Shown here: piece by piece, positions 12,603 to 20,439 of the stretch
Position numbering within the stretch: position 1 is the first letter of the stretch
Layout: every line of letters begins with the position of its first letter
Origin: a virus
Reading direction: 5' to 3' (one strand)
Virus record (IMG/VR): IMGVR_UViG_3300010430_003072
Coordinates: 1-26,543 of that record
DNA: 26,543 nucleotides
The notes under the pieces: model-generated
What the model was told of the DNA's origin: nothing
The model's input: only the letters and a program-made list of their open reading frames with translations
The model's database searches: none
Made by a program: the position numbers and the translations under genes

Positions 12603-12649
12603 ATATACTCCATACCTGGAGCGCCATCGAGCGCCGACCTCATAGGAGG
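12603..12649 (+). promoter_or_regulatory. leader element A: TATACT box, tandem GAGCGCC repeat, strong ribosome binding site
   Basis: In the 55-base gap before the basic-protein gene there is a TATACT (12604-12609) resembling a -10 box. It is followed by GAGCGCC at 12619-12625 and again at 12629-12635 (period 10), then AGGAGG at 12644-12649. No good -35 box is visible. The same repeat stands before three other starts. Confidence 0.55.
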
Positions 12650-12657
12650 CGACAACG

Positions 12658-12993
12658 ATGGCTGATACCTCAAAGAAGGCTCCCGGCAAGGCTCCGAAGA
12701 AGGCTGCCACAGTATCCGATTATCCGGCAGCGAAGCCCAGGTCGAAGCCCAAGCCCAAGTCGAAACCCAAGCCGACCCTCCCAGAGCTTCGTCGTGCCTG
12801 GGGTGACACTCAAGCCAAGACGCTCGACCGTGAGCGCAACCTATCTCGCGCCAACGCAACGCAATCCTCAGCCTCCGACCGCTCCATCCAGGTCGAGAAG
12901 GCAAAGATCTCCCTCCAGAAGGCTCGGGACGTGGAGGAGAAAGCTCGCTCCCGATTCATCAACCAACAGCGAGAGGAGGCAGCGAGGCGATGA
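12658..12993 (+). CDS. small basic Lys/Pro/Ala-rich protein, possibly scaffold-associated
   Basis: 111 residues with a consensus AGGAGG 8 bases before the ATG. The first 45 residues are rich in Lys, Pro and Ala, with repeats of the KPKSKPK kind, and are probably disordered and nucleic-acid-binding or internal to the head. Residues 55-111 are charged with heptad-like spacing and likely form a helix or coiled coil. No known family is recognised. It sits between the prohead protease and the scaffold-like gene and overlaps the latter by ATGA, so it is probably a minor head or assembly protein. It is the first gene behind leader element A, which suggests high late expression. Confidence 0.7.
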   Translation: MADTSKKAPGKAPKKAATVSDYPAAKPRSKPKPKSKPKPTLPELRRAWGDTQAKTLDRERNLSRANATQSSASDRSIQVEKAKISLQKARDVEEKARSRFINQQREEAARR

Positions 12994-14039
12994 AGAAATT
13001 CAAGCTCCGTCAGCTTCTGATCGACCGAGCGGACCTGGTCGACAAGGGTGCGAACCAGGAAGCGTTCATCGAGCTATTCAAGCGAGACGACACCAAGCCC
13101 AGCGTCCCCGAAGCCCTCGACCGGGCGAGGAAGCGCAAGACAGGAGGTCCCACCGTGGACAAGAAGAAGAAGCGCCCTGCGTTCCTCGACGAGGAGCTTG
13201 AGGGTGAGCCGAAGGAGAAGTCGAAGGATGAAGAGATGACCGACGAGGAGAAGAAGAAGCTCCTCTCGAAGGGCATGTCTGATACCCTCGAAGCCATCAC
13301 GAAGGGTCTCGTCGAAACCGACGTATTCGTCGATGATGCGACTGGTGGCGATCTTCGTGATATGCTACCGCCTGAGACACTCTCCAGTATCGAGGAAGTG
13401 TTGAAGAGCGCCTGGAGCGCCGAGCCAGTAGGAGAAGCTGGTATGAGCGAACCAAGCGCACTCAGCGCAACCGACCTGGAAGAACTGGTGGAGTATGTCG
13501 AGAAGCTCGAAGCTGAGGTCGTAGACCTTACGAAGAGACTCGAAGACGATCCTCTTCCCGAAGAGACCGAGATCACCAAGGCTCTCACTGAGTTGCCTGA
13601 AGATGTAGCCAAGGCCATCGAGGCCGAGCGTACCGAACTCGCTGAGAAGCGGGAAGAGGTAGCCAAGGCCGACATCGAGAAGGCCGACCGGGAGTACGTC
13701 GCCAAGATGGAGGCCCTGCCCGGCATCGTCGATTCCCCCAAGGACTTCGGCCCGGTGCTTCGTCAGGTCGCTGCCTTCGACGCCGATCTCGCCAAGTCCA
13801 TCGAAGCTGTCCTTGAGGCGGCGAACGCTCGCATCGAGAAGGGTGACCTGTTCACCGAGGTGGGCAAAGTCACAACGACAACCGGTGGAGATGCGATGGA
13901 AAAGGCGACAAGCATCGCCAAGTCGATGGTGGAAGCCACCCCAGAACTCAGCCTTGAAGAGGCGCGGTCCCGGGTGTGGGAGACCAACCCGGAGTTGTAC
14001 GCCGAATACAACGCCGAACGAGAAGCCGCCAAGAAGTAG
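12990..14039 (+). CDS. scaffold-like head assembly protein
   Basis: 349 residues, starting in an ATGA overlap with GAGGAGG upstream. The N-terminus has IDRADLVDKGANQEAF followed by LFKRD, close to the E-V-D-x-V-D-x-(G/P)AN...A...L.KR segment at the start of proteins that follow XkdF proteases in many phages. The middle is highly acidic and basic with long helices (LVEYVEKLEAEVVDLTKR and the region after it), as expected for a scaffold. The C-terminus (SIAKSMVEATPELSLEEARSRVW) resembles the P-x-L-(T/S)-x-x-x-A-x-x-x-V-(F/W) tail of the same group. Its place between protease and capsid gene supports the call. Two internal in-frame starts with excellent ribosome binding sites (13155, 13443) suggest nested shorter products. 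Confidence 0.75.
   Translation: MKKFKLRQLLIDRADLVDKGANQEAFIELFKRDDTKPSVPEALDRARKRKTGGPTVDKKKKRPAFLDEELEGEPKEKSKDEEMTDEEKKKLLSKGMSDTLEAITKGLVETDVFVDDATGGDLRDMLPPETLSSIEEVLKSAWSAEPVGEAGMSEPSALSATDLEELVEYVEKLEAEVVDLTKRLEDDPLPEETEITKALTELPEDVAKAIEAERTELAEKREEVAKADIEKADREYVAKMEALPGIVDSPKDFGPVLRQVAAFDADLAKSIEAVLEAANARIEKGDLFTEVGKVTTTTGGDAMEKATSIAKSMVEATPELSLEEARSRVWETNPELYAEYNAEREAAKK
13142..13157 (+). promoter_or_regulatory. internal ribosome binding site and in-frame GTG start inside the scaffold gene
   Basis: AGGAGGT (13142-13148) is a perfect Shine-Dalgarno sequence, followed 6-7 bases later by GTG 13155 in the scaffold frame. Initiation here would give a 294-residue product lacking the GAN...LFKR segment. 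Confidence 0.5.
13406..13445 (+). promoter_or_regulatory. leader element B: tandem GAGCGCC repeat, ribosome binding site and internal ATG inside the scaffold gene
   Basis: GAGCGCC occurs at 13406-13412 and 13415-13421 (period 9), then AGGAG at 13430-13434, then ATG 13443 in the scaffold frame. The product would be the 198-residue helical C-terminal part of the scaffold. The order of parts matches the leaders of the capsid and tail tube genes, although here the element lies in coding sequence. Confidence 0.55.
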
Positions 14040-14066
14040 CGGACGAGACGACAGGAGACAAGAACC

Positions 14067-14441
14067 ATGGCATTCGAGATTCCAGGTCAAATGGTCCCGC
14101 TCGATAGCGGATCAACGGCCGTCAAGCAATTTCTCGCTGTTGGCCTCGACGCATCCGGTGTGATCTTGGCCGCCTCTACGGCGGATACCAAGTTCATCGG
14201 GATCGCCCAGAACGACAACGACAGCACGACAGCAGGTGAGTCGATCAACGTGATGATCAACGGCGTGAGCAAGCTCATCGCCACTGGCACCACGATGTCC
14301 GCAGGCGACGCATTTGCGGTTGCCGCCACCGGGAAGGCCATCCCCCTCGCTGGTAACGCCACCCAGAAGGGCGTCGTGATCAGCGGCACCTCGGGCAGCG
14401 CCGACAGGGTCATGACCGTCCTTATCAACCCGCTCGCCTAG
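14067..14441 (+). CDS. capsid decoration/stabilisation protein (DUF2190-like)
   Basis: 124 residues with CAGGAGA 10 bases before the ATG. The sequence is small, Ala/Gly/Thr-rich and beta-strand-like: GVILAASTADTKFIGIAQ, a GESINVMINGVSKLIA stretch, TMSAGDAFAVAATGKAIP, and a closing DRVMTVLINPLA. This pattern of a GI/GVA segment and a G-x-V-x-V-x-x-x-G-x-x segment followed by a G-D-x-x-x-V...G-x-A turn is that of DUF2190-type proteins, which bind the outside of phage heads as cement proteins. It lies immediately before the major capsid gene, the usual place for such proteins, between scaffold and capsid. A short head fibre is a less likely alternative. Confidence 0.75.
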   Translation: MAFEIPGQMVPLDSGSTAVKQFLAVGLDASGVILAASTADTKFIGIAQNDNDSTTAGESINVMINGVSKLIATGTTMSAGDAFAVAATGKAIPLAGNATQKGVVISGTSGSADRVMTVLINPLA

Positions 14442-14448
14442 AGACAGA

Positions 14449-14497
14449 CATAAGGGAAGCCAGAGCGCCCTTGAGCGTCCGCGCTGAACACAGGAGG
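14449..14497 (+). promoter_or_regulatory. leader element C: tandem GAGCGCC repeat before the major capsid gene
   Basis: In the 60-base gap before the capsid gene, GAGCGCC at 14463-14469 and GAGCGTC at 14473-14479 (period 10, one mismatch) are followed by AGGAGG at 14492-14497 and ATG 14502. A poor -10-like CATAAG lies at 14449-14454. The second unit overlaps a short AGCG/CGCT inverted repeat. Confidence 0.55.
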
Positions 14498-14501
14498 CAA
14501 C

Positions 14502-15470
14502 ATGCCCATTCAGCCAGGACCAGGTGACGTACATCTTGATCAGGCCCTCACGGACCTGTCGGTACGTTTCACTCAAGATCATCAGGAGTTCGTGGCGGCG
14601 AAGGTTTTCCCCGTCGTGAATGTCTCCTTCCGAAGCGACAAGTACTTTGTTTATCCACGCGAGTGGTGGTACAAGACCGATGCGACCAAGAGAGCGCCAG
14701 CGACCGAATCGGCCGGTGGAGGTTACGAGCTTGACAGCGACGACTACAAGGCCGAGGTCTATGCGTTCCACCGTGACCTCGACGATCAGACCCGGGCGAA
14801 CGCCCAGAGCCAGATCACCCTTGAAGCGGACGCTACCGACTTCGTGACCACCAACCTCCTTCAGTTGCGCGAGCAACAGTGGGTGGAGAAGTACTTCGCT
14901 GCATCCGTGTGGACCGGAGAGACGACACTCTCAGGGACGGATCAATGGGACGACTATGCAAACAGCGATCCCATCGACGACATGCGGACCGTGGTCATCG
15001 ACATGGCACGGGGAACCGGCAAGCGCCCGAACAAGCTCGTGCTCGGACCTGAGGTCTGGAACAAGCTTCAGGACCACCCGGCGTTCCTCGAACGTGTCAA
15101 GTACACGGAGCGGGCCGTCATCGGAACCGAGATCCTCGCATCGATGCTCAACATCGGTGAGGTGCTCGTGCCCGAGTCGATCAAGCAGGAGAAGCAGGAA
15201 GGCGAGACCGTGGCGTTCACGGACTACGACTTCCACCTGGGCAAGAACGCCCTGTTCCTCTACGTTGCGCCCTCCCCGGGCCTCAACACCGCATCGGCTG
15301 GGTACACGTTCAACTGGTCGGGCCTCAACGGCTCTGCCGGTCAGGGCATCAGGATGAAGAAGTTCCGCATGGAAGCGATCGCATCTGATCGTGTCGAGGG
15401 CGAAATGGCCTACGACCAGAAGGTCGTGTCGGCTGACCTCGGCAGCATCCTCCTCTCGTGTGTTAGCTAG
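14502..15470 (+). CDS. major capsid protein (HK97 fold)
   Basis: 322 residues with AGGAGG four bases before the ATG. The N-terminal part contains QEFVAAKVFPVVNVSFRSDKYFVY followed by a WW, the opening typical of one large class of HK97-fold capsid proteins. Next come an acidic YKAEVYAFHRDLDDQTRANA region, a long helix around QWVEKYF, and the conserved KRPNKLVLGPEVWNKL ... HPAFLERVKY segment near residues 170-200. An ILASMLNIGEVLVPE stretch and a beta-rich C-terminus follow. The position after protease, scaffold and decoration genes and before connector genes fits exactly. The protein is short for a capsid protein with a fused scaffold, which agrees with a separate scaffold gene. Leader element C and the best-spaced ribosome site suggest strong expression. 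Confidence 0.92.
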   Translation: MPIQPGPGDVHLDQALTDLSVRFTQDHQEFVAAKVFPVVNVSFRSDKYFVYPREWWYKTDATKRAPATESAGGGYELDSDDYKAEVYAFHRDLDDQTRANAQSQITLEADATDFVTTNLLQLREQQWVEKYFAASVWTGETTLSGTDQWDDYANSDPIDDMRTVVIDMARGTGKRPNKLVLGPEVWNKLQDHPAFLERVKYTERAVIGTEILASMLNIGEVLVPESIKQEKQEGETVAFTDYDFHLGKNALFLYVAPSPGLNTASAGYTFNWSGLNGSAGQGIRMKKFRMEAIASDRVEGEMAYDQKVVSADLGSILLSCVS

Positions 15471-15479
15471 GAGGAACCC

Positions 15480-15848
15480 ATGACTTCAGTCGTAACAAGC
15501 CAGAGGGTCACCGATCGGTTTGGCATCAAGCATGTCACCCCGGCGGCGACCACCTCGGCCAACCTCCCGAACTATGGGGTGTCGCTGATTGCGTCCACAG
15601 GGGCGTACGTCATCGACAACCCGGTGGTCGGGACGCAGGCCATCATCGCTGTCACGGCTCTCTCCACGGAGACCTCGACGGTGGCGACCGCCTCAACGAC
15701 GGTCACGTTCGCTTCCTCTTCGTCCTCTTCGACCGGTGGTGACAACACACTGACGTTCGATGCGGCCGGTGAAGCAGTGACGCTCGTTGGTGCGTCGACA
15801 CAGTCGTGGGTCGTGGTCTCCAACAGCGGGTCCGTCGCACAGTCGTAA
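15480..15848 (+). CDS. small Ser/Thr-rich beta-type head protein, function unknown
   Basis: 122 residues, with TAGGAGGAA directly before the ATG, nine bases after the capsid stop. Composition is strongly Ser, Thr, Val and Ala with alternating hydrophobic residues, suggesting a beta sandwich or a short stalk. A SSSSSSTGGDN loop lies near residue 88. No family is recognised. Its place right after the major capsid gene suggests a second decoration or head fibre protein, but this is by position only. There is no signal peptide or membrane segment. Confidence 0.72.
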   Translation: MTSVVTSQRVTDRFGIKHVTPAATTSANLPNYGVSLIASTGAYVIDNPVVGTQAIIAVTALSTETSTVATASTTVTFASSSSSSTGGDNTLTFDAAGEAVTLVGASTQSWVVVSNSGSVAQS

Positions 15849-15874
15849 CAATCAACAGAGAAGGGAGCCACCAG

Positions 15875-16162
15875 ATGGCCTACCAAGCAGCCAAGCGAAT
15901 GACCCTTGCAGGAGTCAAGGTCGGCCCAGGCGACATACTCGACGAGGAACTCCTCGGAGATATGCCGACCGGTCGACTCGATTCCCTGCGTAGGGTCGGG
16001 CACATCGTTGAAGTTGTTGACACCCCTAAGTTGAAGGCACGGAAGCGCAAGCAACCGGAACCTGAGACATTGGAGACCACACCGGAAGAGGAGGCCGTAG
16101 AGGAAGAGTCTTCGACAGATGACTCGACCACTGTATCCTCCGACCCTGAAGCGTCTACCTAG
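15875..16162 (+). CDS. small head protein with acidic disordered tail, function unknown
   Basis: 95 residues from ATG 15875, preceded by GAAGGGAG; an upstream in-frame start at 15806 lacks a site and overlaps the previous gene. The first 45 residues form a compact unit (LAGVKVGPGDILDEELLGDM ... RLDSLRRVGHIVEV). The pattern of G-x-x-(V/I)-x-x-G-D-(I/V) followed by a Leu-rich R-L-x-x-L helix is common in small phage proteins encoded near the capsid gene. A basic KARKRK patch and about 30 Glu/Ser/Thr residues follow, probably unstructured. The role is unknown. Confidence 0.7.
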   Translation: MAYQAAKRMTLAGVKVGPGDILDEELLGDMPTGRLDSLRRVGHIVEVVDTPKLKARKRKQPEPETLETTPEEEAVEEESSTDDSTTVSSDPEAST

Positions 16163-16178
16163 TCAAGGGGAATGTTCA

Positions 16179-16952
16179 ATGGCAACGACGACCAAGAGTC
16201 GCAAGGCCAAGGCTGGTACCCCCCGAACTGTATACATCGTCGGGTTCGCACCCTCATGGGAAGACACTCCCTGGGGCGAACCCGACGCTGCATATTGGGG
16301 AATGAACGATCTGCATGCCGTCAAGGATGCAGCCGAGAAGCCGTGGACGAAATGGTTCCAACTCCACGACATCGACAAGCATCATGAGCACAACGCAGAT
16401 ACCCATGTCGGGTGGCTGAACCAGCAGGACTTTCCTGTCGTGATGTTCGAGGGCCATGTCGACAAGCGCATCAACAACCCGGAGCCGTACCCCAAAGCCG
16501 AGATCCTCGAAGAGTTCGGGACCTACTTCACAAACTCGGTGAGTTGGATGATCGCCCTTGCTATCGCCGAGGGCTACGAGAAGATTGGGATCTACGGCAT
16601 TGACATGGCCCAAGACAGTGAGTACGGCCATCAGCGTCCGTCGTGCGAATACTTCGTCGGGTGGGCGCAGGGCAGAAACATCGAGATCGATGTTGCCGAA
16701 TCTTCCGACCTACTCAAGACACCGTTCTTGTATGCGGTCGAGGACGGCGGCCCTCTTCGACGCAAGCTTGAGTCGAGGATGAAAGAACTGACCGAGCGTA
16801 AGACACAGATCGATGGGCAGATGAATCAACTTCAACTCCAGTCGGCGAACCTGGCCGGGGCGCTCGAAGACACCCGCTACTACTTGCGGGCGTGGTCTCA
16901 AGGCGAAATGACTGACGGCCCGGAGCCGCAACCACAGGAGGCGGCAACATGA
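16179..16952 (+). CDS. Rossmann-like phage protein of unknown function with C-terminal coiled coil
   Basis: 257 residues from ATG 16179, about seven bases after AAGGGGAA; the upstream in-frame start at 16119 lies inside the previous gene. It begins with a basic tail, then TVYIVGFAPSWEDTPW, a beta strand with a GxAPS turn resembling a nucleotide-binding loop. Further landmarks are YWGMNDLH, KWFQLHDIDKH, YFTNSVSWMIALAIAEGY, KIGIYGIDMAQDSEY and QRPSCEYFVGWAQGRNIEI. This set recurs in phage proteins of unknown function. The alternating strands and helices and the IYGIDM motif suggest an alpha/beta enzyme, possibly a nucleotide- or sugar-handling one. Residues 205-245 are Glu/Lys/Gln-rich and likely a coiled coil. 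An enzyme-like gene inside the head-tail block is notable; it may be a virion component. Confidence 0.65.
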   Translation: MATTTKSRKAKAGTPRTVYIVGFAPSWEDTPWGEPDAAYWGMNDLHAVKDAAEKPWTKWFQLHDIDKHHEHNADTHVGWLNQQDFPVVMFEGHVDKRINNPEPYPKAEILEEFGTYFTNSVSWMIALAIAEGYEKIGIYGIDMAQDSEYGHQRPSCEYFVGWAQGRNIEIDVAESSDLLKTPFLYAVEDGGPLRRKLESRMKELTERKTQIDGQMNQLQLQSANLAGALEDTRYYLRAWSQGEMTDGPEPQPQEAAT

Positions 16953-17284
16953 ATGTCCATTCACCAGTACAAGCGAGAGGTCTCCTGAATTCCGTAGTGG
17001 CAACGACCGAGGTCGGCGCTGGAACGGCGTTCGGGGTTCAGCCAACCGAGAAGGTCGCCATGCAGGTGGTTCACGGGTCGACGGCGGCAACGCCAACCCA
17101 GGTGAAGGTGGAAGGTTCTCTCGACGGAACCAACTGGTTCAACATCGGGGCGACCCAGAGCTACAACACCGCAGACACAAGCATCTATGTTTCGACCGGC
17201 TCGTTCGTTGCCACGGTGGTGCGGGCGAACGTCGTCGTACATGCAGCGACCGGTACGGTGCAGGCGGATCTGGCGGTGGTCTAG
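16949..17284 (+). CDS. small beta-sandwich head protein, possible Ig-like or carbohydrate-binding decoration
   Basis: 111 residues, starting in an ATGA overlap with CAGGAGG upstream. The core VKVEGSLDGTNWFNIGATQ resembles the strand-loop-strand G-S-x-D-G-x-x-W-x-x-(I/L)-G of phage Ig-like or discoidin-like beta sandwiches. A VRANVVVHAATGTVQADLAVV strand pair closes the fold. Such small proteins often sit on the head surface. The location between capsid and connector genes agrees, but there is no direct evidence for ligand binding. Confidence 0.7.
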   Translation: MNVHSPVQARGLLNSVVATTEVGAGTAFGVQPTEKVAMQVVHGSTAATPTQVKVEGSLDGTNWFNIGATQSYNTADTSIYVSTGSFVATVVRANVVVHAATGTVQADLAVV

Positions 17285-17736
17285 TGAGCCACGAAGCCAA
17301 CGCCACATATAGCGGCGACCCCTCCTCATCCGACCTGGATGCGGTGCGGTTTATCCTGGCTGACACGGGGGACACGTTCATCCTCACCGACCCCGAGATC
17401 GAATATCTGCTCGCCACCAACTCGTCCCCCGCCGCAGCAGCAGCGGAAGGGGCGCGCACGATGGCAGCCGTCTACGGGTCGAAGGCCGACAAGTCGGTTG
17501 GGGATCTCTCGATCCGATACTCGGACCGTAGGGAACATTTCCAGACCCTCGCCGACACCCTCGACGGCAAGACCGCCAGCCTGGGTTCGGCGCTGACCGG
17601 GATCACTGGAGGCAGGGGTGCAGAGCGCGACCCGATCTTCTGGCTCGGCCAGATGCGTCAGCCCGGCACACCGGTCACCGACTACTCGACTTCGATGGCC
17701 TCTGTCGAATCGTTCTCAGCGGGCACATCGACATGA
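17284..17736 (+). CDS. head-tail connector (adaptor) protein
   Basis: 150 residues starting at GTG 17284, which overlaps the previous stop by one base (TAGTG). The N-terminal region DLDAVRFILADTGDTFILTDPEIEYLL followed by an Ala-rich helix (SPAAAAAEGARTMAAVYG) is the hallmark of the gp6/gp15-type helical adaptors that bind the portal ring. The KSVGDLSIRYSDR stretch that follows is also typical. The C-terminus (FWLGQMRQPGTP) is extended. It opens the canonical series connector, closure protein, neck protein, terminator and tail tube, with ATGA coupling to the next gene. Confidence 0.85.
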   Translation: MSHEANATYSGDPSSSDLDAVRFILADTGDTFILTDPEIEYLLATNSSPAAAAAEGARTMAAVYGSKADKSVGDLSIRYSDRREHFQTLADTLDGKTASLGSALTGITGGRGAERDPIFWLGQMRQPGTPVTDYSTSMASVESFSAGTST

Positions 17737-18083
17737 GCTTCGACCCCGAGTTCCTGGAGCTAATGGCAGACACGATCCGTGTCTCGACCATGACCGGCTT
17801 CGACGGCTACGGGGATGTGGCGTATTCAACAACGCCGTCGACCTACCAGGCTCGCATCACGAACATCCCGAAGATGGTGCGGAACTTCATGGGCGAAGAG
17901 GTCGTGGCGTCGAACGTCGTCTGGGTGGCGAGCACCGGGATCATCCCGGCCACCGCCCAGGTCTCGTGGACGATGTCGGACGGTTCGACCCAGATGCCGC
18001 TCCTGATCTCGATCGAGCGCCCGGCCGACGAGGACGGCACCCACCACAACAAGCTCTACTTCGGACCGGCTGGGGGTGGGTGA
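17733..18083 (+). CDS. head closure (head-tail stopper) protein
   Basis: 116 residues in ATGA overlap with the connector gene. The sequence is beta-rich: DTIRVSTMTGFDGYGDVAY, YQARITNIPKMVRNFMGEEVVASNVVWVAS, and a final KLYFGPAGGG. The phrase DG(Y)G..xYst.st..xRi.....V....G.eV.S...V is common in stopper proteins of the SPP1 gp16/HK97 gp7 group, which seal the head after packaging. The length is normal. Position between connector and neck protein supports the call. Confidence 0.8.
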   Translation: MSFDPEFLELMADTIRVSTMTGFDGYGDVAYSTTPSTYQARITNIPKMVRNFMGEEVVASNVVWVASTGIIPATAQVSWTMSDGSTQMPLLISIERPADEDGTHHNKLYFGPAGGG

Positions 18084-18487
18084 TGGCTACAGCAAGCTTC
18101 AGTGAGAAAGGGATGCAGGCTGCCAGGGATGCCCTGGCGGGTCTCGGCCCGAAGGTCACCACGATCGGGGCCGGTGCGCTGTACAAGGAAGGCATCGACA
18201 TCATGAACGCCTCACTGGACATTGTCCCGGTGCTCACCGGCAGGTTGAAGGGGACCGGCACAGTGTTCCCCCCCGTCGAAGTAGGTGGCGACGCCGTCGT
18301 GCTCCTCTCCTACGGTGACGCCGAGATCGACTATGCCGTCGAGCAGCACGAAACCCCACCGGAGATCTACAGTCACAGGGCGGGCCAGTCCTGGAAGTAC
18401 CTTGAGCGTCCGGCGTTCGAGGCGACCAGGGGCATGGGGCATCGCATCGCCCTCTACATCAACAACCGCTTGAAGAGGGAGGCGTAA
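18083..18487 (+). CDS. neck/tail completion protein (HK97 gp10-like)
   Basis: 134 residues from ATG 18083, one base into the previous stop (TGATG); a longer frame reaching 17618 is only the open upstream extension. An N-terminal helix is followed by ALYKEGIDIMNASLDIVPVLTGRLKGTG, VLLSYGDAEIDYAVEQHE and KYLERPAFEA. The P-V-x-T-G-x-L-x-x-(S/T) motif, the Y-A-x-x-x-H/QHE and the K(Y/F)LE..A segment identify the gp10-type tail completion/neck family. The order before the tail terminator is the usual one. Confidence 0.85.
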   Translation: MATASFSEKGMQAARDALAGLGPKVTTIGAGALYKEGIDIMNASLDIVPVLTGRLKGTGTVFPPVEVGGDAVVLLSYGDAEIDYAVEQHETPPEIYSHRAGQSWKYLERPAFEATRGMGHRIALYINNRLKREA

Positions 18488-18882
18488 TGCTCCTCGATGA
18501 GATCGCCACCTACGTCGCCACAAACTCAACCCTTGTGGTCGGGACGGACCTGTTCAAGAACCAGTTTCCGGCGACGGCGAAAGATACGGCGGTCGGGATC
18601 TACGAGTCGGGAGGTGTCGGGCCGAGCGTTACGTTCGGTGGCGTCTCCCACGAGTCCCCGTCCATCCAGGTTGTGGTTCGCTCCACGTCGTATGGCGTGG
18701 CGCGCAACCTGGCCCAAACGATCTTCAACGATCTCCTCGACATCGAGAACTCAACCCTCTCGGGGACGAGGCATCTCATGGCCCGGGCGCAACAGTCGCC
18801 GTTCTCGATCGGAACAGACGCCAAGGATCGTCCCCGTGTGTCCTGCAACTACTTCATCGAGAAGGAAGTGTCGTCGACATGA
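18487..18882 (+). CDS. tail terminator protein
   Basis: 131 residues, with GAGGGAGG before an ATG that overlaps the previous stop by one base. The sequence runs EIATYVATNST..VGTDLFKNQFP, AVGIYESGG, SPSIQVVVRSTSYGVARNLAQTIFNDL, HLMARAQQSPFSIGTDAKDRPRVSCNYFIE. The I-Q-V-x-V-R-x-x-x-Y-x-x-A strand-helix unit and the closing S-x-N-(Y/F) strand characterise the terminators of siphovirus tails (lambda gpU-like), which cap the tail tube at its final length. Gene order supports this. Confidence 0.83.
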   Translation: MLLDEIATYVATNSTLVVGTDLFKNQFPATAKDTAVGIYESGGVGPSVTFGGVSHESPSIQVVVRSTSYGVARNLAQTIFNDLLDIENSTLSGTRHLMARAQQSPFSIGTDAKDRPRVSCNYFIEKEVSST

Positions 18883-19115
18883 CACCGTCATTCGTCTTCG
18901 ACCGAATCGCACAGCTTGACCAGGTTGAGGCAGATCTGCGTTCGTGGGCGAAGGTGTACGGCGGATATCGTGAGAGTCTTATCGAAGAGGGGTTCGACCC
19001 GGACGAAGCATTCTCCATGGTCATGAGTTGGCAGCAGGGTATGTTCACGATACAGGCCCACATAGAGACGGCTGCTATCCTCAACTCAATAGAGGAAGAG
19101 GGGAGGGAAGGGTGA
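18879..19115 (+). CDS. small helical protein, function unknown
   Basis: 78 residues in ATGA overlap with the terminator gene. The sequence is acidic and almost wholly helical, with LDQVEADLRSWAKVYGGYRES, LIEEGFDPDEAFSMVMSWQQGMF and an acidic tail. The G-F-(D)-x-x-x-A-x-x-(M/L)-x-x-x-(W/Y) pattern recurs in small phage proteins of unknown role found beside tail genes. No catalytic or metal-binding motif is visible. Coupling by GTGA to the next, Com-like gene suggests that they are produced together. Confidence 0.68.
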   Translation: MTPSFVFDRIAQLDQVEADLRSWAKVYGGYRESLIEEGFDPDEAFSMVMSWQQGMFTIQAHIETAAILNSIEEEGREG

Positions 19116-19306
19116 CGCCACTAACCCACGAGTTCGTGAATGAACTCAAAAGCGATATGCAGGTTCTACGTCAGACCTTCTCCGATGTACGGTGTGATGG
19201 GTGCGCTAGGCTTCTCCTTCGGTGGAGGCCGAGCGGTATAGCGACCATCAGCGTGAAGTGCCCAAGGTGCGGGAAGCTCGATACTGTCCAACTCTCAACC
19301 GGCTAG
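19112..19306 (+). CDS. Com-like zinc-finger protein (possible RNA-binding translational regulator)
   Basis: 64 residues from GTG 19112 (GTGA overlap; GGGAGGGAAG upstream). After a 25-residue helix comes VRCDGCARLLLRW, a 9-residue gap, then IATISVKCPRCGKLDTVQL. The four Cys (C-x2-C ... C-x2-C) with the I/V-(R/K)-C-P-R-C-x-K-x-(D/N) ending match the Com family of Mu-like phages. Mu Com is a small zinc protein that binds the mom mRNA leader and exposes its ribosome site, so translation can start. No mom gene is visible in this window. Its gene ends 63 bases before the first tail tube gene, whose leader holds repeat element D; an RNA-binding role there is speculation. A generic zinc ribbon is the alternative. 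Confidence 0.7.
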   Translation: MTPLTHEFVNELKSDMQVLRQTFSDVRCDGCARLLLRWRPSGIATISVKCPRCGKLDTVQLSTG

Positions 19307-19307
19307 C

Positions 19308-19360
19308 TACAATTCACTTCGGAGAGCGCCTGCGAGCGCCTTAACGGTCACCCCAGGAGG
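19308..19360 (+). promoter_or_regulatory. leader element D: TACAAT box, tandem GAGCGCC repeat and ribosome binding site before the tail tube gene
   Basis: The 62-base gap before the tail tube gene contains TACAAT (19308-19313, -10-like), GAGCGCC at 19324-19330 and again at 19334-19340 (period 10), and AGGAGG at 19355-19360. It has the same order and nearly the same spacing as element A. No clear -35 box is visible. Confidence 0.58.
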
Positions 19361-19368
19361 TAACCATA

Positions 19369-19785
19369 ATGGCACTTGCAGGAAAAGGCGGGAAGTTCCA
19401 GTTTGACGTAACTGGCACCCCCACAGAGGTGGCCGACCTCCGGGAATGGTCACTCAACATTGATCGGGATCTCTTCGAGATCTCCACGTTCGGTTCAAGC
19501 GGCTGGCGAGACTTCCAGCAAAATCTCAATGGCGCATCGGCGTCCATCTCGGGCTATTGGAACGTCGAGAATTCATCTTCGATGAAGACGATCCAGAGCA
19601 ACATTCTCGACCAGTCTGCTGCGGCGACCGCAGAGTTCTGGGTAGAGAACTCATCCGGTTGGGGCTACACGGCCGAGGTGTTCGTCACATCGCTCAGCCC
19701 GAGCGCAGCGGTGGATGGCATCGTCACGTTCGCTGCCGACATGACTATCACCGGAGCGGTGACGTTCAGCACGGCCCTCACTTAG
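19369..19785 (+). CDS. major tail tube protein (copy 1)
   Basis: 138 residues with AGGAGGT eight bases before the ATG. The sequence is a compact beta-rich tube subunit: MALAGKGGKFQFDV, then VADLREWSLNIDRDLFEIST, a WRDFQQNLNGASASISGYW strand pair, and C-terminal strands (AEVFVTSLSPSAAVDGIVTF, MTITGAVTFST). The A-V-D-G-(I/V)-V-T-F...ITG-x-(V/L) ending is typical of siphovirus tail tube proteins. The leader with repeat element D and the strong ribosome site fit a major structural protein. The next gene is a larger paralogue. Confidence 0.87.
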   Translation: MALAGKGGKFQFDVTGTPTEVADLREWSLNIDRDLFEISTFGSSGWRDFQQNLNGASASISGYWNVENSSSMKTIQSNILDQSAAATAEFWVENSSGWGYTAEVFVTSLSPSAAVDGIVTFAADMTITGAVTFSTALT

Positions 19786-19794
19786 GAGACAACC

Positions 19795-20439
19795 ATGGCA
19801 TTGGCAGGCAAAGACGCCAACGTCTACATCACCGCAGCAACGCCAACGACGGCGGCGGGAGAGACGTTCAATGCTGTCGCCGGGTCCTCAGTCTCCCACC
19901 AGATCACCGCCTCATCGAAGCGGCACTGGGAGCGTGAACCGGACACGGTAGGACGCCCCAGGATGCTCGTAGGCGGCACCACGGTGGGAGTACCCGAATA
20001 CGACATCAACTACGTCCAGGGCATCATCACGTTCGCCTCCACGGTCTCTGGTGCCGTCACCGGGGACGTGGAGTGGCTGACCTCAGCGTCGATCGCAGAG
20101 GGCCGTGAATGGCAACTCAGTGTCGACCGAGACCTGTTCGAGGTCTCCACCTTCGACAGCGGGGGGTGGCGGGAGTTCCAGGAGAACATCAACGGCGCAA
20201 CGGCGTCGGTGAGTCGCTACTGGTCAACAGGCGGTACGGGCGGGGGTGAGTTCTTCGACATGATGAACGTCGAACAGGACGTGATCCTACAGCTACGCCC
20301 CGACGAATCCGCAGGCGACGCCTACGAGGGCTACGCCAAGATAACGGCAGACAGCGTTGCAGCAGCGGTGGACGGCATCGTCGGTGAGTCGATTGACTTC
20401 ACCATTGACGGTGCCCTCTACTACACGACATCGGCATAG
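19795..20439 (+). CDS. tail tube-like protein (copy 2, with N-terminal insertion)
   Basis: 214 residues, nine bases after copy 1, with TTAGGAGA before the ATG. Both proteins start MALAGK. Residues about 102-143 (EWQLSVDRDLFEVSTF ... WREFQENINGATASVSRYW) match copy 1 at most positions, and the C-termini share the AAVDGIVGES/AAVDGIVTF strand and a final beta hairpin. Copy 2 carries about 75 extra residues after MALAGK, with HWEREPDTVGRPRMLVGG and YDINYVQGIITFAS, a Y-x-(I/V)-x-Y-x-x-G-x-I-x-F segment often seen in tube or baseplate proteins. It could be a second, minor tube subunit, a tube tip or a decorated tube variant. It arose by tandem duplication. Confidence 0.78.
   Translation: MALAGKDANVYITAATPTTAAGETFNAVAGSSVSHQITASSKRHWEREPDTVGRPRMLVGGTTVGVPEYDINYVQGIITFASTVSGAVTGDVEWLTSASIAEGREWQLSVDRDLFEVSTFDSGGWREFQENINGATASVSRYWSTGGTGGGEFFDMMNVEQDVILQLRPDESAGDAYEGYAKITADSVAAAVDGIVGESIDFTIDGALYYTTSA

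Follow-up and report, generated by a model that had tools for sequence, protein, structure and literature searches.

A small covarying mRNA hairpin precedes scaffold, capsid and tail-tube start codons in a phage lineage

Results

The window analysed here is a 26,543-base fragment (positions 1-26,543 of IMG/VR record IMGVR_UViG_3300010430_003072). Its structural region contains a gene for a basic protein, for which family searches returned no match, followed by a scaffold-like unit, a major capsid gene and a tail-tube gene, and a short paired sequence element lies in the leader of each (Table 1). Three of the four elements are exact GAGCGCC-N2/3-GAGCGCC pairs (starting at 12619, 13406 and 19324), and the fourth (14463) carries one mismatch. 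A first-pass annotation of this DNA had reported all four pairs, each followed by AGGAG(G) and a start codon, and we recovered every one of them, with gaps between element and AGGAG(G) of 8, 8, 12 and 14 nt. Its gene names were correct or nearly so for the scaffold region, the capsid (Phage_cap_E, PF03864) and the tail tube (Phage_tail_2, PF06199). The hexamers TATACT (basic-protein site) and TACAAT (tail-tube site) indeed begin 15 and 16 nt, respectively, ahead of the first unit, and within the window the element is restricted to virion-assembly genes, as had been claimed.

Table 1. Positions of the hairpin elements and associated features in the window
Feature	Position	Strand	Remarks
-10-like hexamer TATACT	12604..12609	+	9 nt 5' of first hairpin; predicted
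Hairpin element 1, GAGCGCC-ATC-GAGCGCC	12619..12635	+	Leader of basic-protein gene
Shine-Dalgarno AGGAGG, basic-protein gene	12644..12649	+	
Basic 111-aa protein, Lys/Pro/Ala-rich N-terminus	12658..12993	+	
Hairpin element 2, GAGCGCC-TG-GAGCGCC	13406..13421	+	Leader of scaffold start inside ORF 12990-14039
Scaffold-like unit, in-frame internal ATG	13443..14039	+	Separate ORF in L004
Hairpin element 3, GAGCGCC-CTT-GAGCGTC	14463..14479	+	Leader of capsid gene; one G-U pair
Major capsid protein, Phage_cap_E (PF03864)	14502..15470	+	
-10-like hexamer TACAAT	19308..19313	+	10 nt 5' of hairpin 4; predicted
Hairpin element 4, GAGCGCC-TGC-GAGCGCC	19324..19340	+	Leader of tail-tube gene
Tail tube protein copy 1, Phage_tail_2 (PF06199)	19369..19785	+	

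Dinucleotide shuffles gave an expectation of 0.02 exact pairs per 26.5 kb window, against the three observed, while single GAGCGCC words numbered 20 against 6.7 expected. The scaffold copy lies in frame within its ORF; the basic-protein, capsid and tail-tube copies are intergenic. The earlier statement that the window holds no other such pair stands for the GAGCGCC sequence itself. A search by structure alone added one candidate with a Shine-Dalgarno sequence, GACGGCC-CG-GAGCCGC at 16914-16929, which has another core and lies 6 nt 5' of an AGGAGG ahead of ORF 16949. It is absent before the orthologues inspected and was set aside as probably a chance match.

Two features of gene organization were seen alongside the element. 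The scaffold-like unit starts at an internal in-frame ATG with its own hairpin and Shine-Dalgarno sequence in the window and in two relatives (L012 and L008), an arrangement that resembles the nested start of lambda C/Nu3; in L004 (2313-2960) it is a separate ORF, with a TAG directly 3' of the hairpin. Additionally, two tail-tube-like genes stand in tandem (19369-19785 and 19795-20439), and the hairpin leader precedes only the first, both in the window and in the relatives inspected.

To follow the element beyond the window, we used 13 further IMG/VR contigs of the lineage, found among the matches listed in capsid and tail-tube protein scans and in one pattern scan. Their capsid or tube proteins are approximately 55-61% identical to those of the window. 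Scans of genome contigs for a host returned no close relative, and cultured phages reach approximately 40% identity in the capsid and 26% in the tail tube. Every available orthologous start was read, irrespective of any prior motif match. With the window included, the element was present before 5/5 basic-protein, 5/5 scaffold, 8/8 capsid and 10/10 tail-tube starts. Together with a site before an 823-aa gene in L012, these 28 orthologous starts give 29 of 29 inspected lineage sites. The first-pass annotation had named the absence of the element before capsid and tail-tube orthologues of relatives as the outcome that would speak against it; all eight capsid and all ten tube starts carry the element.

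Because its arms diverge, the element escaped a direct-repeat search of the relatives. Searching the lineage by structure gave 40 matches versus 7 in the reversed-sequence control, and requiring a Shine-Dalgarno sequence and a start codon in addition left 31 versus 1. The same search of 73 more distant capsid relatives found no excess of the structure (29 versus 26 in the reversed-sequence control). Many raw pattern matches (in L105, L106, L129 and L202) were long coding repeats, and leader-like matches to the variant GAACGCC..GAGCGTC with a strong Shine-Dalgarno sequence were confined to the window lineage. L009 has a degenerate copy ahead of a cement gene (5247) and a further copy 73 nt upstream of the tail-chaperone gene (11651). 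The second tube copy and most cement genes have no element, though cement proteins are also high-copy. As a separate observation, the capsid genes of L009 (~5737) and L010 (~131) apparently start with ATT after a good Shine-Dalgarno sequence and hairpin; no ATG, GTG or TTG is found where the capsid start is expected.

The divergent arms revealed how the two units are related. Most capsid starts carry GAACGCC..GAGCGTC, the L004 tube start GAGCACC..GAGTGCC, the L009 scaffold start GAGCGTC..GAACGCC and the L011 capsid start GAGCGAC..GATCGCC; in all of these variants, the four central letters of one unit, reverse-complemented, give those of the other. Across 27 distinct sites, 108/108 core cells form standard pairs. 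Changes on both sides occur in three of the four core pairs, with nine double-sided changes in total, which represent approximately five independent compensatory events because the capsid sites inherit one change. None of 500 shuffles reached the observed paired fraction, the number of double-changed cells or the covariation score, and shifting the partner by one to three columns abolished the covariation signal. In both units, the flanking letters G1, A2 and C7 are invariant in all aligned sites and run in direct orientation. The consensus is 5'-G-A-[wxyz]-C-(N2-5)-G-A-[z'y'x'w']-C-3', with 7-nt arms and a four-base-pair core. Direct flanks combined with complementary cores fit an RNA hairpin, and neither a DNA palindrome or dyad nor a DNA direct repeat. 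The GAGCGCC pair, annotated earlier as a tandem repeat, is therefore better read as two units with complementary cores, which very probably form the arms of a small mRNA hairpin.

In isolation, the elements fold as 4-bp hairpins of -3.8 to -5.8 kcal/mol, which is weak, and another fold was predicted for the full leader in two of the four cases tested. The stem thus appears too weak to work through its stability alone, and this is among our reasons for proposing a bound protein. The fixed G, A and C around the core have a pseudo-twofold symmetry. Either A-C mismatches would cap both ends of the core, or G-C pairs would form outside it and leave a single bulged A in each strand.

The hairpin ends 18-31 nt 5' of the start codon and 6-22 nt 5' of the Shine-Dalgarno sequence, which places it just upstream of the expected ribosome footprint. 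Sequestration of the Shine-Dalgarno sequence by the hairpin was rejected, since the element lies at least 6 nt upstream of it and no conserved pairing partner for it was seen. A -10-like TAnnnT hexamer, 8-12 nt 5' of the element, accompanies 4/5 basic-protein hairpins, 10/10 tube hairpins and the one tail site of L012 (15/16 together), but 0/8 capsid and 0/5 scaffold hairpins among the lineage sites. The capsid and scaffold hairpins without a -10-like hexamer argue that the element is not part of a promoter, and the pattern by gene indicates that its placement tracks the start codon, not the promoter. Should the -10 sites be genuine, the basic-protein and tube mRNAs would begin approximately 5 nt before the hairpin.

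The same structure was detected in phages outside the lineage, whose assignment to rumen or gut rests on contig sets of rumen type and on relatives from human faeces. Among the 118 matches listed in the pattern scan, 28 lie outside long ORFs and 15 are leader-like, compared with 2/58 and 0/58 for a control with reversed units. The corresponding Fisher p values among the matches listed, ~0.0005 (outside long ORFs) and ~0.003 (leader-like), are optimistic, as related contigs are non-independent. In unrelated rumen/gut phages, the hairpin directly precedes a DUF6711 (phrog_1194) gene at 12 of 16 loci among the matches listed, some of them near-duplicates. In several rumen/gut phages, the tape-measure gene follows a version with the core TGCC/GGCA, and L225 shows the compensated core CGCC/GGCG. 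Furthermore, a covariance model built from the window lineage alone placed the DUF6711 sites among its top matches in 801 kb, and further leaders precede large-terminase and major-tail genes. Common ancestry, a common binding partner or convergence may relate the two sets.

At four rumen-phage loci, G001:15220 (L231), G002:19387 (L234), G003:22126 (L238:2126) and G004:22591 (L245:2591), unit 2 doubles as the 5' arm of an intrinsic terminator, which continues with GGCGCTC or GGCGTTC and then a T run. As unit 2 is common to hairpin and terminator, the two foldings look mutually exclusive, and these copies may have a role in termination control. A different layout was seen in the large-terminase leaders of L131, L140 and L200, and also in L184, where GAGCGCC-N-GAGCGCC is followed by GGAGGGCGCTT-ATTTTTATG or similar; there, the complementary arm overlaps the Shine-Dalgarno sequence, and a T run stands before the start codon.

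Discussion

Tailed phages need capsid, scaffold and tail-tube proteins in amounts far above those of neighbours in the same operon. To our knowledge, how such doses are set inside long late operons is poorly understood beyond a few models. One small covarying hairpin before just these cistrons is a defined, portable element, which could be used to fish out its binding partner and whose effect could be measured with a simple reporter. That it also occurs in unrelated phages hints at a device of wider use.

We consider it probable that the hairpin is a protein-bound, post-transcriptional leader element that co-regulates high-copy virion genes. Fixed unpaired letters on a short stem are what usually marks a protein-recognised hairpin. 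The cis-acting hairpin would sit at the upstream edge of the ribosome footprint, where a common trans factor might bind it on the basic-protein/scaffold, capsid and tail-tube leaders. The bound factor would then jointly set the translation or mRNA lifetime of these cistrons, whether by activation, stabilisation or repression, so that the leaders would constitute an RNA regulon for high-copy virion parts. Counting in favour of such a protein-bound element are its presence at 29/29 lineage sites, the 108/108 paired cells, the invariant flanks and the 31 versus 1 matches with a Shine-Dalgarno sequence, as well as the occurrence of the -10-like hexamer at 15/16 sites versus 0/13 capsid and scaffold sites and the recurrence before DUF6711 and tape-measure genes. 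Counting against it are the weak stem and the competing fold in two of four leaders, evidence for virion-gene restriction that covers just the structural region, and the lack of the element before tube copy 2 and most genes for the high-copy cement proteins.

It seems unlikely to us that the element is a plain stabilising leader hairpin without a dedicated protein. Lying near the 5' end (at approximately +5, provided that the -10 sites are genuine) or at an end created by processing, such a hairpin would hinder 5'-to-3' decay or 5'-end-dependent cleavage and raise the dose of the downstream cistron. Bacterial mRNAs are stabilised by 5'-terminal hairpins, the element directly follows a -10-like hexamer at the basic-protein and tube genes, and the downstream products are high-copy. 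However, the 4-bp stem, at -3.8 to -5.8 kcal/mol, is weak, and stability as such gives no reason for the GA and C flanks of the core to stay the same in every aligned site.

We regard as decidedly unlikely an RNA element that acts on transcription elongation (antitermination or attenuation, like put or nut) and governs read-through into the virion cistrons. The several rumen copies that adjoin an intrinsic terminator, with unit 2 as its 5' arm, point in this direction, yet none of the four window sites has a GGCGCTC complement nearby, the nearest minus-strand GAGCGCC being at 16859, and the several copies per operon keep a fixed distance to start codons.

Of the two proposals in the first-pass annotation, the mRNA-binding regulator is the one our data favour; the other, a binding site for a late activator, fares poorly given the covariation and the capsid and scaffold sites without a -10-like hexamer. 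A DNA site would fit the hexamers that lie 8-12 nt upstream at the basic-protein and tube sites with no obvious -35, whether as a tandem operator bound by a late transcription activator or as a component of a late promoter. It is nevertheless very improbable, because reverse-complement cores with direct flanks match neither DNA geometry, the units stand at variable distances of 2-5 nt, the element would fall downstream of +1, and the hexamer is missing at all eight capsid and five scaffold sites, leaving the element without a set place relative to a promoter. A GC-rich genome might repeat GAGCGCC by chance or through codon use, as the abundance of the single word (20 in the window) and the in-frame scaffold copy could suggest; this reading can practically be dismissed in view of the 0.02 pairs expected, the 31 versus 1 structure-plus-Shine-Dalgarno matches, the intergenic position at the basic-protein, capsid and tube genes and the retention across contigs with 55-61% identical capsid or tube proteins.

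Returning to the protein-bound hairpin, we tentatively raise the possibility, which we would not rate as high as even, that GA[4 bp]C-N2-5-GA[4 bp]C is an undescribed class of phage mRNA element. Its use before virion and packaging genes in unrelated lineages, that of the window and the rumen/gut phages, might then reflect recognition of the pseudo-symmetric flanking A residues, either by a conserved host factor (one associated with the ribosome, RNA polymerase or an RNase) or by a phage protein that is widely shared.

Comparison with known systems

Rfam 15 gave no match at or above the curated gathering threshold for the window and six related stretches, and none of relevance up to E=5. We dropped likenesses to the kink-turn (no tandem sheared G-A arrangement), to CsrA sites (no GGA loops) and to TRAP sites (only two repeats). 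A description of the element was not found in the open-access literature; publication elsewhere is possible.

The start-associated sequences (SAS) of cluster K mycobacteriophages have a 13-bp asymmetric consensus, GGGATAGGAGCCC, which contains the Shine-Dalgarno sequence, lies 3-7 bp from the start codon and occurs only in the non-structural half of the genome (PMC3203893). Approximately half of them carry an ESAS, an additional repeat pair with a variable spacer that comprises two imperfect 17-bp inverted repeats; changes in its arms do not support RNA pairing, and the authors favour a DNA-binding protein (PMC3203893). The parallel to these sequences drawn in the first-pass annotation extends to position only: both are short repeated motifs that stand in one orientation just 5' of the start codons of some phage genes. 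In contrast to SAS, GANNNNC-N2-5-GANNNNC is separate from and upstream of the Shine-Dalgarno sequence, at 18-31 nt from the start, and all conserved lineage sites precede virion-assembly genes. The decisive difference from ESAS is that the arms, 7 nt long and with all 108 core cells paired, show the covariation of an RNA stem.

Small hairpins also occur in phage or bacterial leaders as put, nut/boxB and terminator elements. The present element shares with these antitermination and attenuation RNAs its size and its leader position, and some rumen copies adjoin terminators. It differs in its placement relative to the start codon, its repetition within the operon and, in the window lineage, the lack of an adjacent terminator arm.

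The coat-protein operators of RNA phages (MS2/PP7) are short, protein-recognised hairpins in which an invariant unpaired A lies close to the start of translation. The element described here likewise is a conserved hairpin with fixed unpaired letters near a start codon, its protein binding being putative. Unlike those operators, it stands before several different genes, lies upstream of the Shine-Dalgarno sequence, leaves the start codon uncovered and has a fixed A on both strands.
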